64,000 nt of DNA from the IMG/VR virus record IMGVR_UViG_3300012930_000002, positions 1 to 64,000 of that record, one strand, 5' to 3'. Below the pieces are notes generated by a model that was given only the letters and a program-made list of their open reading frames with translations, was not told the DNA's origin and did not search any database. The position numbers were made by a program, and so were the translations under genes. Position 1 is the stretch's first letter. Each line of letters opens with the position of its first letter. Of this stretch, positions 36,344 to 41,895 are shown piece after piece. The DNA comes from a virus.

Positions 36344-36470
36344 GCTAGAGCGGCTAGAGACACTGTATGCCGCCCTCGTCCGTCACCAATCCGACCTGCA
36401 TAACTGGCGGTGGATAGAAGTGCTGGCAGCAATGAAAGCGATAGGAGAAACCGATGAGCAAAATACTTGA
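36327..36470 (+). CDS. Small helical protein, 47 aa
   Basis: MTIATRLERLETLYAALVRH; a short coiled coil. Overlaps the neighbours by 17 bases on both sides; GGAGCC is before the start. Function unknown. Confidence 0.5.
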   Translation: MTIATRLERLETLYAALVRHQSDLHNWRWIEVLAAMKAIGETDEQNT

Positions 36471-36900
36471 TCCGAATCGTCGCTATGTTGTCGGCTTCGT
36501 CTTCTCTCTTGATCGCCATAATGTTCTCCTGATCCGCAAAAAGCGTCCAGTTTGGCAAGAGGGAAAGCTAAACGGTATCGGCGGTGCAATCGAGACAGGT
36601 GAGACGCCAACCGCCGCAATGGTCCGCGAGTTTGCTGAAGAATGCGGGATAGTCTTACCGCTCCAAGCGTGGCAGTTGTTTGCCTCAATTCGCGATAGTC
36701 GCGGTTGGTGGGTTGATTTTTTCTACGCTTGGCACGGTGAGATAGGCGATGCGCGATCGTTGACCGATGAGGACGTTGAGTTAGTGCCGGTCAGTTTTAT
36801 CAGCAATGCCAAGTGCTTACCAAGTCTTCGCTGGCTGATTCCAATGGCGTTGTCAATGAGCAGCGAGAGTCATCGTGGTTATGAGATTCAAGAGAGGTAG
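36454..36900 (+). CDS. Nudix hydrolase, 148 aa
   Basis: Complete Nudix box at residues 44-66: GGAIETGETPTAAMVREFAE, then ECG-I, with the REFAEE catalytic metal-binding glutamates. The N-terminal strand VVGFVFSLDRHNVLLIRKK and KLNGIGGAIE fit MutT/NudF-type folds. Likely removes damaged or regulatory nucleoside diphosphate derivatives. Position next to DNA modification genes may indicate nucleotide-pool cleaning, which is inference. Confidence 0.9.
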   Translation: MSKILDPNRRYVVGFVFSLDRHNVLLIRKKRPVWQEGKLNGIGGAIETGETPTAAMVREFAEECGIVLPLQAWQLFASIRDSRGWWVDFFYAWHGEIGDARSLTDEDVELVPVSFISNAKCLPSLRWLIPMALSMSSESHRGYEIQER

Positions 36901-37158: not shown

Positions 37159-37901
37159 CCTTTGGCTCATTGTTCGCAGGTATCGGCGGCTTTGATTTAG
37201 GTCTTGAACGTGCTGGAATGAAATGCAAATGGCAAGTTGAGATTGATGATTATGCATCGAAAGTCCTCGCGAAACACTGGCCCAATGTTACCCGATTTCG
37301 AGACGTGCGGGAGTGTGGAAGGCATAACCTTGCCAACGTTGATCTCATCTGCGGAGGGTTTCCGTGTCAAGACATCAGCAATGCAGGAAAACGAGCGGGA
37401 ATTGACGGAGAGCGCAGCGGATTATGGTCGGAGTACGCAAGAATCATTCGCGAGTTACGACCCCAATACGTGCTCGTGGAAAACGTCGCAGCTTTGCTTG
37501 GGCGGGGAATGGGCAGAGTTCTCGGAGACTTGGCCGCGTGCGGGTATGATGCAGAGTGGGACATGTTACCCGCTTGTGCCTTTGGTGCCAAACATATCCG
37601 TGAAAGACTTTGGATATTATCCTACCCCTACGAAAAGCGACCACAAAGGCGCATCTTCGGGATGTGGAAAGATCAAGAACGAAGAACTTTCGATGCTTCG
37701 TTATTATCTATTCAGCTTGGAGCCAATCATTGGGACGCTTTACCCTCATCCAGAGTTTGTCGAGTGGCTAATGGGATTCCCAATAGGGCACACAGAACTA
37801 TGACGGTTGGGAATAGTATCGTCCCCCAAATCGCAGAATGGATCGGACGAAGAATCATAGCCGCAGAGGAGCATGGAGCATGGAAAGCACGGAACTTTTA
37901 G
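37137..37901 (+). CDS. DNA cytosine-5 methyltransferase, compact
   Basis: 254 residues, short for the family (usually 330 or more) because the target-recognition part is small. Motif I FGSLFAGIGGFDLGLERAG, motif IV GGFPCQDIS with the catalytic Cys, motif VI LVENVAALL, motif VIII-like HIRERLWILSY, and motif IX/X NRAHRTMTVGNSIVPQIAEW. All catalytic motifs are present, so it should be active. A second 188-codon frame lies entirely inside it. It probably protects phage DNA from host restriction. Confidence 0.9.
   Translation: MEERTLLTFGSLFAGIGGFDLGLERAGMKCKWQVEIDDYASKVLAKHWPNVTRFRDVRECGRHNLANVDLICGGFPCQDISNAGKRAGIDGERSGLWSEYARIIRELRPQYVLVENVAALLGRGMGRVLGDLAACGYDAEWDMLPACAFGAKHIRERLWILSYPYEKRPQRRIFGMWKDQERRTFDASLLSIQLGANHWDALPSSRVCRVANGIPNRAHRTMTVGNSIVPQIAEWIGRRIIAAEEHGAWKARNF
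37237..37803 (+). CDS. Overprinted frame inside the C5 methyltransferase gene, 188 aa
   Basis: The +1 frame stays open from a TTG at 37237 (ATGs at 37246, 37252 and 37381) to TGA at 37803. Its product holds ESFASYDPNTCSWKTSQLCL, WAEFSETWPRAGMMQSGTC, FGYYPTPTKSDHKG and EFVEWLMGFPIGHTEL. From memory these motifs mark a recurrent, usually unnamed phage protein family often found near methyltransferases. They lie exactly over methyltransferase motifs VI to IX. No convincing ribosome binding site was found, so expression is uncertain. Confidence 0.5.
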   Translation: MRLMIMHRKSSRNTGPMLPDFETCGSVEGITLPTLISSAEGFRVKTSAMQENERELTESAADYGRSTQESFASYDPNTCSWKTSQLCLGGEWAEFSETWPRAGMMQSGTCYPLVPLVPNISVKDFGYYPTPTKSDHKGASSGCGKIKNEELSMLRYYLFSLEPIIGTLYPHPEFVEWLMGFPIGHTEL

Positions 37902-40156
37902 GTGAGCGGGATTATACTGATTTTCTAGCGAGCAAGCGACTGGTTGCGCCCGCTACTGGCATTGAGATCGACCGCGCCGATTTGCACCCTGCCATGTTTC
38001 CCTTTCAGGCGGACGTAACAACTTGGGCGCTACGTAAGGGCCGTGCGGCAATGTTTCTAGATTGCGTCGCGGGATCATCGCGAATACTGACATCGCAAGG
38101 CTACCAACCTATTCAAGAGCGGAATCGGCAATGGACAGAAATTTATTCGCTGTCACCAACAGGTCCGGTTGTTACTCCTGCTTTTATCTTTAAGAAGGGC
38201 AATGCGGGCCTATTACGTATTCGCACTCAAGGCGGCAGAACTATTGAGATCGCTTCACGGCATCTATTCTTAACGTCTTCCGGCTGGCTTTTGGCTTCCG
38301 AGATCGAGGTCGGCGTATCGCTTGCAGTATCCGACGCCGACCGTCTTCTGTCCATTTTGGAATCCGGCCAGTTAGTTCAGCACGAAGATGATCGCCATTG
38401 GTCGGATACAATTCAAGATTGTCAGGCTCGTTACACTGTTTCCCCTTCGCAGTGTTCTTATGGTGAACCACCTCTTCGGGGCGCAAGTATCGCCCAATTA
38501 CCATTTCTATCACAAGTCGGTGTTCAAGAACTCGCCCCGCTTTTGAGGCAAATGGATGTTCGGGACAATAAATTGAAACGTACCCATCCGCGTCTAAGTA
38601 TCGGCCGCCTTTCCATGCGGGATTATGTGACCCCGGCAAGCTATGCTGAGAGTGACGCGGGATATTGTTCCTTTTCATCGTTTGCCAAATGGTATTCTTT
38701 GAATAGCCAAGAACTATTCCGACCTGCTTCATCCGATAGCCCTGAGCAGTCAATTCCCGAATTTTCTCAATCTCATCAAGTTGAAGATTATATAAGCGAG
38801 GTCGTCCAGTTTTCATGCTTAGAAGTATACCATGATCCTATAGTCAGTGTCGAGAAAGTAGATGCGGCGGACTATTATGATATGTACGTACCCGGCTATC
38901 ACAATTACCTTGCAGAAGGTATGTGGCATCATAATACAGGTCTTGGCAAATCGTTCTGTCAAATTGAATGGGCGCGCATCCTCAATAACCAGGGTTACTG
39001 CGTGTTGATAGTAGCCCCTCTCGCTGTCGCTAAACAAACTGTGCGCGAGGCTGCGAAGTGGGGTACGGCAATCGAGTATGTGCGAGAGCCGGCAGCAATC
39101 AGCGGCACAACTGAAACGATCATCACCAACTATGAACACGTGCAGAAGTTCGATATGCGGCAGTTTGGCGGCGTGGTACTGGACGAATCAAGCATCCTCA
39201 AGTCGCAAGACGGTAAGACACGTACACGGTTGATTGAAATGTGCCGCGAGATACCTTTCCGCCTATGCTGCACGGCCACCCCTGCACCAAACGACATTAG
39301 CGAGATTGCCAACCATGCTGAGTTCTTAGGATTGATGTCCCGCACTGAAATGCTCGCCCATTTCTTCGTTCACGGTGACACCGGCTGGCGACTGAAAGGT
39401 CACGCTAGCGAACCGTTCTATCGCTGGCTGGCGTCCTGGGGGATGTCAGTGAAGAAGCCGAGCGACCTGGGCTACGAGGACGGTGCATTCATCTTGCCAC
39501 CGCTTACCATCACTCCGCACTTTGTTCAAACCGACTGGAAGCCGGACGGGATGCTATTCAGCGTCAAGTTACGTGGCATCGGCGAACGGTCACAAGCACG
39601 GAAGGCGACACTGCTACCACGTGTTGCGAAAACAGTTGAGATTGTTGAAGCGGAGCCGAACCAACGTTGGCTGATCTTTTGTGACACGAACGATGAATCG
39701 ACGGCATTGAAAAAAGCACTGGATGCAGTCGAGGTCAAGGGCAGCGATACGCTAGATCACAAAGAACGGTCACTGCTTGGATTTGCCAACGGTGACATTC
39801 CGCGACTTGTAAGCAAGACCTCAATTGCGGGCTTTGGTTTGAATCTCCAAGTCTGCTCCCGCGTCCTTTACTGCGGCCTCAGCGACAGTGAGGAAAAGTT
39901 CTATCAAGGCACCCGGCGAGTCTGGCGATTTGGCCAGCCTGATCCCGTTACCGCGCATATCGTGCTGAGCGATGCCGAGTATCCGATCTACGAGAACGTG
40001 ATGAGGAAAGAAGCGAAGGCAGCAGAGATGTCAGCTAACCTGATTCAGAATGTCGCTGCATATGAACGCACCGAGATCAGTTCGCATCTTGGCAGCTTTA
40101 ACTATGCGGACGATCAGGAAATAAAGCTTCCATCTTGGCTTAATGGTGGTGTATAA
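37880..40156 (+). CDS. SNF2/DEAD-like helicase interrupted by an intein
   Basis: 758 residues from the ATG at 37880 (AGAGGAG nine bases before). The first 61 residues include AMFPFQADVTTWALRKGRAA. The P-loop reads FLD | TGLGKSFCQ, split by 291 intein residues. After it come VLIVAPLAVAKQTVREAAKW, motif II VVLDESSILKS, motif III CTATPAPND, and C-terminal SIAGFGLNLQVC with VWRFGQPDPVTAHI, the SNF2 motif VI region. After splicing the protein has about 467 residues. Similar helicases next to methyltransferases are found in phages; the task may be DNA translocation during modification or recombination. Confidence 0.85.
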   Translation: MESTELLGERDYTDFLASKRLVAPATGIEIDRADLHPAMFPFQADVTTWALRKGRAAMFLDCVAGSSRILTSQGYQPIQERNRQWTEIYSLSPTGPVVTPAFIFKKGNAGLLRIRTQGGRTIEIASRHLFLTSSGWLLASEIEVGVSLAVSDADRLLSILESGQLVQHEDDRHWSDTIQDCQARYTVSPSQCSYGEPPLRGASIAQLPFLSQVGVQELAPLLRQMDVRDNKLKRTHPRLSIGRLSMRDYVTPASYAESDAGYCSFSSFAKWYSLNSQELFRPASSDSPEQSIPEFSQSHQVEDYISEVVQFSCLEVYHDPIVSVEKVDAADYYDMYVPGYHNYLAEGMWHHNTGLGKSFCQIEWARILNNQGYCVLIVAPLAVAKQTVREAAKWGTAIEYVREPAAISGTTETIITNYEHVQKFDMRQFGGVVLDESSILKSQDGKTRTRLIEMCREIPFRLCCTATPAPNDISEIANHAEFLGLMSRTEMLAHFFVHGDTGWRLKGHASEPFYRWLASWGMSVKKPSDLGYEDGAFILPPLTITPHFVQTDWKPDGMLFSVKLRGIGERSQARKATLLPRVAKTVEIVEAEPNQRWLIFCDTNDESTALKKALDAVEVKGSDTLDHKERSLLGFANGDIPRLVSKTSIAGFGLNLQVCSRVLYCGLSDSEEKFYQGTRRVWRFGQPDPVTAHIVLSDAEYPIYENVMRKEAKAAEMSANLIQNVAAYERTEISSHLGSFNYADDQEIKLPSWLNGGV
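38241..38816 (-). CDS. HNH homing endonuclease encoded antisense to the intein
   Basis: 191 residues. N-terminal HTH (EIEKIRELTAQGYRMKQVG, then LGYSKNTIWQTMKR), a linker with HNPAWKGGRYLDADGYVSI, and an HNH_3-type core: EHRLVIEMVIGRYLRPEEVV, HHKNTAKGKQCNEPDNLEL, then YPTNGDHLRAEL. Basic C-terminus. The gene lies wholly within the intein coding region on the other strand, and the two reading frames are both open. It has its own promoter-like sequence. It would cut intein-free helicase alleles. Confidence 0.85.
   Translation of the reverse strand: MKTGRPRLYNLQLDEIEKIRELTAQGYRMKQVGIVLGYSKNTIWQTMKRNNIPRHSQHSLPGSHNPAWKGGRYLDADGYVSIYCPEHPFASKAGRVLEHRLVIEMVIGRYLRPEEVVHHKNTAKGKQCNEPDNLELYPTNGDHLRAELTGRIPKWTEDGRRRILQAIRRPRSRKPKASRKTLRIDAVKRSQ
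38824..38853 (-). promoter_or_regulatory. Leaderless promoter for the antisense endonuclease
   Basis: On the minus strand TCGACA (38853-38848), 18-base spacer, TATACT (38829-38824). The ATG at 38816 starts seven bases after the -10 box, so the transcript would be leaderless; no Shine-Dalgarno sequence is seen. It lies inside the C-terminal splicing domain of the intein. Confidence 0.6.
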
Positions 40157-40163: not shown

Positions 40164-40949
40164 GTGAAGATTCCGTTGCCGGTACGTCAAAAAGTCAAGT
40201 GTGCGATCTGTGACAGAACTCTTAGTCGGGTTATTTGGAACTACCCAAAGAATCGGCCTATCGCCTTTTTCTTTTGTAACAACAGCTGCAAGGGGCAATG
40301 GCAAAGAGAACAGCGGGAGGCATTAGGATTTACGCGAGAATGGCTGATAGAGCAGTATATTGTTCTTAAAAAGACGGCTAATGATATTGCTACTGAGATC
40401 GGTCGTGATCCTAAGCGCGTTTGGGAATGGATCAGGGATTATAAAATTGCGACTCGCCCACGTGGAACCGCAACTCATCTGAAAGGCGGCGTGCCGTTTG
40501 GACGTGGCAACATTGGCCGGAAGCATTCACCTGAAATGAAAGCAAAGCTACGAGCTATCGCATTAGCTGACGGTCGCGTTCCTTATGATCCAAAAGTCGG
40601 ACCTCCGTTCAAAGGAAAACGTGGAGCCGAAACACCAAACTGGAAAGGCGGTGTTACGCCAGAGCGACAGGCTTTTTATTCATCGCCTGAATGGGCAAAA
40701 GCGATCAAGGCAGTCTGGCATCGAGCGGATGCAAAATGCGAGCGATGCGGATTAGATCATCGGACGATTGATCGAACAAAGAAACGGTTTCATGTTCATC
40801 ATATCGTTAGCTTTCAAATACGCGAGCTGCGGGCGGTAGTAAGCAATCTCGCATTACTCTGTGATACCTGTCATCGATGGGTACATAGCAAAAGGAATAA
40901 GAACCATGAGTTCATCCGCGAAAGTAATGGCGCAGGCACAGGGCTCTAA
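40164..40949 (+). CDS. HNH endonuclease with zinc finger and HTH
   Basis: 261 residues from the GTG at 40164. An N-terminal zinc ribbon (KCAICDRTLSRVIWNY, FFFCNNSCKGQW) is followed by an HTH (ANDIATEIGRDPKRVWEWIR), a GRKHSPEMKAKLRAIA segment like the NUMOD3 DNA-binding motif, and the HNH core KCERCGLDHRT, FHVHHIVSFQIRE, LALLCDTCHRWVHS. The modular build is typical of homing nucleases. Lies between the helicase and methyltransferase genes and overlaps the latter by 44 bases. Confidence 0.85.
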   Translation: MKIPLPVRQKVKCAICDRTLSRVIWNYPKNRPIAFFFCNNSCKGQWQREQREALGFTREWLIEQYIVLKKTANDIATEIGRDPKRVWEWIRDYKIATRPRGTATHLKGGVPFGRGNIGRKHSPEMKAKLRAIALADGRVPYDPKVGPPFKGKRGAETPNWKGGVTPERQAFYSSPEWAKAIKAVWHRADAKCERCGLDHRTIDRTKKRFHVHHIVSFQIRELRAVVSNLALLCDTCHRWVHSKRNKNHEFIRESNGAGTGL

Positions 40950-41895
40950 TTGGGCTTTATATAATGGGGATTCTGCCGAGATTATGAAAGGGCTTCCTTC
41001 CGAGTCTGTTGACTTAAGCCTGTTCTCTCCGCCTTTTGGCGCATTATTTGTGTATTCCAATACCGAACGTGATCTAGGTAACAGCAAAAACGCGGATGAG
41101 TTCTTTACCCACTTCGCCTACATTACCAGTGAAATTTATCGCGTGATGAAACCGGGACGGAATGTCTGTGTACACGTCGCGCAGTTGCCATTGACTAAAC
41201 AGACAGATGGCGTCATCGGCATCAAGGACTTTCGCGGTGATGTAATCCGGCACTTTGTCGCGCAGAATTTTATCTTTCACGGCGAAGTTTGTATAGACAA
41301 AGATCCGCAAGCCCAGGCAATTCGCACGCACAATAAGGGGTTGTTATTCGTGCAGCTCAAGAAGGACTCAAGCTGGTTGCGACCCGCGTTCGCTGACTAC
41401 GTGCTAGTGTTTCGCAAGCCTGGAGAGAACGCCGTAGCGATCCATCCTAATATCAGTAACGACGACTGGATCAAGTGGGCACATCCGCTTTGGCAAATTG
41501 AAACGACTGACGAGGACCGAGCGCTATTCGATAGCTCCGAGCTGTTCGACCTTGCGCCGGGCACTCCGCTAATCTGGTACGGCATTCGCGAGAGTGACAC
41601 GCTGCAAGGCATGCGTGAGGCTCGTGATGAGAAGGACGGCAAGCATATTTGTCCGTTGCAGCTTGGTACGATAGAGCGATGTGTTAGGTTGTGGAGTAAT
41701 CCAGGCGAGCTAGTGTTCTCGCCCTTTGCAGGCATCGGCAGCGAGCCGTATCAAGCGGTCAAGTTTGGCCGGCGCGGATTAGGTATTGAACTGAAGCCAC
41801 AGTATTACTCTGTCGCCGTCAAAAACCTCCAGCAAGCCGAGCGTGAGGCGATGTCAGGATCGCTGTTTGGGCTGATGGAAGCTGCCGCGCCGTAG
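40906..41895 (+). CDS. DNA N4/N6-type methyltransferase
   Basis: 329 residues from the ATG at 40906 (AAGGA upstream); a GTG and ATG further up lie inside the HNH gene. Motif IV is VDLSLFSPPFGALFVYS, and motif I near the C-terminus is GELVFSPFAGIGSEPYQAVK followed by RRGLGIELKPQY. Motif IV before motif I indicates the beta class of amino-methyltransferases. SPPF suggests N4-cytosine or N6-adenine methylation. Together with the helicase it may form a modification pair. Confidence 0.85.
   Translation: MSSSAKVMAQAQGSNWALYNGDSAEIMKGLPSESVDLSLFSPPFGALFVYSNTERDLGNSKNADEFFTHFAYITSEIYRVMKPGRNVCVHVAQLPLTKQTDGVIGIKDFRGDVIRHFVAQNFIFHGEVCIDKDPQAQAIRTHNKGLLFVQLKKDSSWLRPAFADYVLVFRKPGENAVAIHPNISNDDWIKWAHPLWQIETTDEDRALFDSSELFDLAPGTPLIWYGIRESDTLQGMREARDEKDGKHICPLQLGTIERCVRLWSNPGELVFSPFAGIGSEPYQAVKFGRRGLGIELKPQYYSVAVKNLQQAEREAMSGSLFGLMEAAAP

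Follow-up and report, generated by a model that had tools for sequence, protein, structure and literature searches.

The motifs of one C5-cytosine DNA methyltransferase can be shared by two polypeptides, as they are in M.AquI (CYCGRG), where motifs IX and X lie on the small chain, and in M.EcoHK31I (YGGCCR). In M.EcoHK31I, the gene of the small subunit lies in another frame inside the gene of the large subunit, and activity needs both; motif IX of C5 methyltransferases is of the ...E..RLMGFP.. type. Specifically, the large subunit of M.EcoHK31I carries motifs I-VIII and X as well as the predicted recognition domain, and the small subunit contributes only motif IX (PMC3404938). A further type of hidden reading frame is known from the ShiLan-domain insertion, in which phage methylases contain an out-of-frame HNH endonuclease (PMC11855218).

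The present analysis concerns a window of 64,000 nucleotides, the whole stretch of DNA that was analysed, from an IMG/VR virus record of 71,817 bases. A nested ORF of 188 codons (beta) lies there in the +1 frame of a methyltransferase ORF (alpha), just as the original prediction had placed it, with SWKTSQ over LVENVAAL and EWLMGFP over RVANGIP (Table 1). The reading favored here, with a probability of roughly 0.8, is that alpha and beta together form one C5-cytosine DNA methyltransferase, made of two polypeptides from overlapping frames. The domain that binds AdoMet and performs catalysis (motifs I-VIII, with the GFPCQ loop) would come from alpha, as would motif X, and beta would provide a probable target-recognition segment and motif IX, plus an overprinted N-terminal extension (SWKTSQ...SETWPRSGMM) that may dock beta onto alpha. 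We infer that beta is translated from an internal start in the +1 frame, that the two chains assemble into a standard C5-methyltransferase fold, and that the resulting enzyme methylates phage DNA, thereby probably shielding it from host restriction.

Compared by described motif layout, the pair resembles M.EcoHK31I in having motifs I-VIII and X on alpha and motif IX on beta, and since this architecture is already known, it does not constitute a new kind of enzyme. It differs in that it belongs to a phage, that no restriction endonuclease was recognised in the neighbourhood of the locus in the window, and that its probable recognition segment lies in beta, whereas in M.EcoHK31I a recognition domain is predicted in the large subunit. 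With M.AquI it shares the distribution of one enzyme's motifs over two polypeptides, but it keeps motif X on alpha and beta lies wholly within alpha, which sets it apart from the AquI type. Like the ShiLan-domain insertion, furthermore, beta adds a hidden reading frame to a phage methylase gene whose own frame stays open (PMC11855218); that insertion is a mobile HNH element, however, whereas beta overlies the conserved methyltransferase core and shows no HNH match.

Table 1 Features of the nested methyltransferase locus and its surroundings, in window coordinates
Feature	Position	Strand	Basis or remark
alpha, C5-cytosine methyltransferase ORF, 254 aa	37137..37901	+	motifs I-VIII and X, without motif IX
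beta, nested ORF, 188 aa counted from TTG	37237..37803	+	+1 frame of alpha; phrog_1008, shuffle tests
beta N-terminal half, SWKTSQ	37474-37491	+	over alpha motif IV; Z=19
beta N-terminal half, SETWPRAGMM	37522-37551	+	over stretch 3' of alpha motif IV; Z=44
beta N-terminal half, apparently overprinted block	37474..37551	+	low alpha third-position change, alpha 111-145
beta, probable target-recognition region, YYPTPTKSDHKG...	37615..37740	+	beta HMM against LPTPxxxD of L099/L101; Z=31
motif IX in beta, HPEFVEWLMGFPIGHTEL	37747..37800	+	motif census, codon-position profile, Z=63
motif X in alpha, RTMTVGNSIVPQ	37794..37829	+	overlaps beta end; motif census, codon positions
NUDIX hydrolase	36454-36900	+	upstream of methyltransferase
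SNF2-type helicase ORF	37838-40156	+	broken by apparent intein (PF14890)
HNH endonuclease ORF	38241-38816	-	inside intein region of SNF2-type helicase ORF, opposite strand
second DNA methyltransferase, by eye	40861-41895	+	downstream; other class (SPPFG motif)

Alpha is a member of the C5 methyltransferase family PF00145 (E=3.4e-48; 165 bits against a cut-off of 22), matches phrog_363 at E=2.6e-79, and displays both GGFPCQDIS, with the PCQ catalytic loop, and VENV, the ENV motif. The PF00145 match covers only profile positions 2-166 of 324, and motif IX and the recognition domain do not follow in the same chain. Beta matches phrog_1008 (E=1e-25 in a profile search), as do all 74 of 74 beta proteins of relatives, and is without a matching family in Pfam or NCBIfam. 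The original prediction had assigned its motifs to a recurrent unnamed phage family; recurrent it is, but it largely corresponds to phrog_1008, which carries the label 'DNA methyltransferase'. That label is silent on the fact that the members are +1 products of methyltransferase genes, with motif IX instead of a catalytic domain. PHROG 16143, identically labelled, likewise matches +1 products of such genes. A search with beta retrieved 51 viral loci and 370 phage records, 296 of the latter from mycobacteriophages. Most records inspected annotate one frame of the two: gene lists of Bacteroides, Acinetobacter and Leptospira plasmid records give alpha only (the table of plasmid genes has known gaps), and those of Virus Rctr197k and Microcystis phage Mwe-JY08 give beta only.

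For the main tests of dual coding, loci were picked by an alpha search alone, because a beta search would select for open +1 frames; the loci are thus the best-scoring relatives of the window's alpha and provide no estimate of the share among all C5 methyltransferases. In the null model, the codons of alpha were shuffled among synonymous positions with protein and codon counts fixed, codon-pair effects lying outside the model. Across 118 unique alpha-selected genes, the +1 frame over alpha residues 93-200 contains 16 stops versus 320 +/- 14 expected, and the +2 frame 506 versus 538 +/- 19. Openness of the +1 frame is individually significant at 0.05 in 102 of these genes, and only 9 of the 118 have at least one +1 stop over the region; the genes with +1 stops include four in which motif IX lies in frame 0 (L099, L101, L294 and L301). 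A second alpha-selected set gives the same picture (70 of 79 genes significant in +1, 1 of 79 in +2), and the window's gene by itself has a +1 open stretch of 193 codons, compared with a shuffle mean of 80 (p = 0.001).

The beta frame is, furthermore, conserved beyond what alpha demands. In 79 non-redundant genes, the excess reaches Z = 19 at SWKTSQLC, Z = 44 at SETWPRAG, Z = 31 at YPTPTKSD and Z = 63 at EWLMGFPI, and 25 chromosomal single-chain enzymes, tested alike as a negative control, yield a mean Z of -0.12 and a maximum of 2.1. Among Planctomycetota chromosomal enzymes, a profile reveals a clear nested beta only in L104, L125 and L127. The proposal that the methylase motifs in alpha's frame suffice to explain the +1 motifs is not supported by these values, which far exceed what alpha dictates. 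In the converse test, in which the codons of beta were shuffled, alpha proved independently constrained along its whole length, and together the two results place both frames under selection. The codon positions reflect this division: at alpha residues 206-221, the motif IX region, the first alpha codon position, which is the third of beta, varies most, and at residues 222-232, motif X, the third alpha position is once more the most variable. Dual coding at the locus is therefore strongly supported by stop depletion and by conservation beyond alpha, with no comparable effect in +2, and it is old and widespread among relatives of the window's gene.

Less well placed is the start of beta. The TTG at 37237 finds no support, as +1 conservation does not climb before about alpha residues 65-97 (approximately 37330-37430); other in-frame candidates are ATG at 37246, 37252, 37285 and 37381 and TTG at 37330. 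No strong Shine-Dalgarno site was seen at the beta starts inspected in the window. The starts differ among relatives, and some are preceded by good Shine-Dalgarno sequences (L006, L022, L045).

A motif census clarifies what the two frames encode. In most nested genes, motif IX appears in the +1 frame as LNPxFVEWLMGFPxGWT and is absent from frame 0, and motif X (LGNAVVPQ) appears in frame 0. EWLMGFP had been taken for the shadow of a methylase motif, RVANGIP, but RVANGIP is no methyltransferase motif; EFVEWLMGFPIGHTEL is itself motif IX of the methyltransferase and is missing from alpha. In the single-chain relatives L099 and L101, a long +1 ORF is missing and motif IX is found in frame 0, in the same chain as an LPTPxxxD segment; the beta HMM matches both. 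The C-terminal half of beta therefore corresponds to a recognition segment followed by motif IX, and the former probably represents the target-recognition region. This segment, which matches the recognition regions of single-chain enzymes, sits in beta and not in alpha, although alpha residues 169-205 are constrained too. At the level of sequence, selection acts on both frames, beta houses motif IX and alpha motif X, and the C-terminal pieces of beta recur in frame in single-chain relatives.

Natural variants divide these pieces differently. In Gordonia phage Jumbo, alpha has motifs I-VIII only and matches the N-terminal part of L101, and the beta ORF combines the N-terminal half, the recognition segment, motif IX and motif X, matching the recognition-IX-X region of L101 at E=2e-18 and the window's beta at E=2e-13. 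This is the split of M.AquI, with motifs IX and X on an overlapping small chain, and it is seen in the Gordonia phages Jumbo and GordTnk2 (L143, L307). In L294, motif IX has shifted into the frame of alpha and beta keeps the remainder. Judged by their motifs, the layouts of Jumbo and L294 are the same pieces apportioned in other ways between two frames. In a tree with uneven backbone support, the nested genes are grouped at 0.86, and the single-chain L099 and L101 as well as L294 fall inside this group; the placement has modest support, and we make no claim as to whether these forms are ancestral or re-fused.

Other two-piece or fused arrangements were set aside. L044 was considered as an alpha-beta fusion and is ambiguous, its beta frame being interrupted. 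The split genes of the mycobacteriophage Seabastian type look like a recent lesion and not a designed split, as one inserted base relative to Spikelee breaks both frames (L053 versus L052); this two-piece match recurs in several related phages.

The N-terminal half of beta raises a distinct question. It looks overprinted, because SWKTSQ and SETWPRAGMM have no in-frame counterpart in single-chain relatives, and the suggestion that the whole family arose by overprinting would hold for this half only, the C-terminal half consisting of enzyme pieces of those relatives. This half can still be recognised in the +1 frame of the single-chain enzymes of the actinophages ShiLan, Wachhund and Papez, with openness by itself significant in Wachhund only; the methylases of ShiLan and Wachhund (L304, L305) also contain repeats of LLPTPxxxDGxGG in their recognition region. 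A second class of +1 ORF occurs in Firmicutes phages and plasmids at 35-53% GC (L137, L138, L192-L224), whose single-chain enzyme is complete and has its motif IX in frame. Above the core of this enzyme, about 150-190 codons are open in +1; the ORF matches phrog_16143, is conserved to a degree that alpha does not impose (Z up to 21), has zero +1 stops over alpha residues 57-192, and ends in SLSDILEEEVDEKYFLS instead of motif IX. The presence of the N-terminal half over enzymes that are already complete is not accounted for by enzyme completion, and it may thus have a further role.

These observations lend themselves to the view that beta is a separate functional protein, for instance a methyltransferase regulator or a counter-defence factor, that took over motif IX and the recognition segment in some lineages. 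The conservation of its N-terminal half in +1 over the complete Firmicutes enzymes, and the recognisable trace of that half in actinophage enzymes, would fit such a protein, but an alpha of the window's type, without motif IX, could not work as a normal enzyme, and the beta-only search found no beta outside methyltransferase genes. In addition, a segment similar to the SDIL...KY end of the Firmicutes +1 ORF occurs in frame 3' of motif VIII in the ordinary methyltransferase L105, so that the Firmicutes-type beta, on this one example, may likewise supply an enzyme piece. A separate protein is accordingly unlikely. A related proposal concerns the N-terminal half itself, namely that it is an old overprinted accessory protein, kept in +1 above the catalytic core in several lineages of phage C5 methyltransferases, among them complete single-chain enzymes, while evolution shuffled motifs IX and X and the recognition segment between the frames; this is possible, and we hold it tentatively, at somewhat less than even odds.

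Structure prediction bears on the shared enzyme and, at the same time, on the idea that both parts are made as one chain. AlphaFold2 models beta alone with a pLDDT of 60 and a pTM of 0.21, confidently only at the motif IX helix, and no match emerged when solved structures were searched with beta alone and with a beta profile. In a test fusion, an artificial read-through from alpha 1-161 into the C-terminal part of beta, made with a four-letter word, AlphaFold2 predicts a C5-methyltransferase fold (pLDDT 84, pTM 0.82) that aligns with M.HhaI over residues 10-292 (Z 20, rmsd 2.2, 181 residues). Most of the beta-derived part has a pLDDT of 44-70, so that the good Z is owed mostly to alpha. Motif IX of M.HhaI ends near residue 292, which is where the last beta residues of the model fall. 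As such, the fusion model supports the shared-enzyme reading without being decisive for it.

That the fusion folds in silico, and that single-chain relatives exist, could also suit programmed frameshifting, in which ribosomes would pass from alpha into +1 before the recognition segment and produce one chain with motifs I-VIII, the recognition segment and motif IX. However, conserved parts of beta, SWKTSQ and SETWPRAG, precede every useful shift point, and a shift would not need them; motif X would be lost unless a second shift restored it; and the internal starts, if variable, are plausible and in some relatives well equipped for ribosome binding. Frameshifting is for these reasons quite improbable. 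That the +1 ORF is no gene at all, but a shadow cast by the sequence and codon usage of the methyltransferase, is barely credible and, as a full account, already refuted: all beta matches in the loci examined overlie methyltransferase genes, no Pfam or NCBIfam family covers beta and beta alone has no predicted fold, yet synonymous shuffles that fix the alpha protein and codon counts give 20 times more stops and far weaker conservation than seen, the variable codon position at motif IX switches to the third of beta, ordinary C5 methyltransferases show nothing similar, and alpha has no motif IX. The original prediction had counted a lack of homologues outside methylase genes against the ORF, and none were found there; the ORF nevertheless stands, because the shuffle and codon-position tests separate coding from shadow.

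The findings place two polypeptides from overlapping frames, probably acting as one methyltransferase, in a wider context. In the open-access papers searched, a nested C5 methyltransferase distributed across phages is not described, and within that searchable literature the widespread phage family, the deep dual coding and the coexistence of nested, split and single-chain forms appear to be new. A layout earlier known mainly from one odd bacterial enzyme becomes a common phage strategy, and the locus presents a long, deeply conserved dual-coding gene both of whose products should belong to one enzyme. Since the family comprises nested and split genes as well as partly re-fused and single-chain ones, it is furthermore a clean model of how overlapping genes arise and are maintained.
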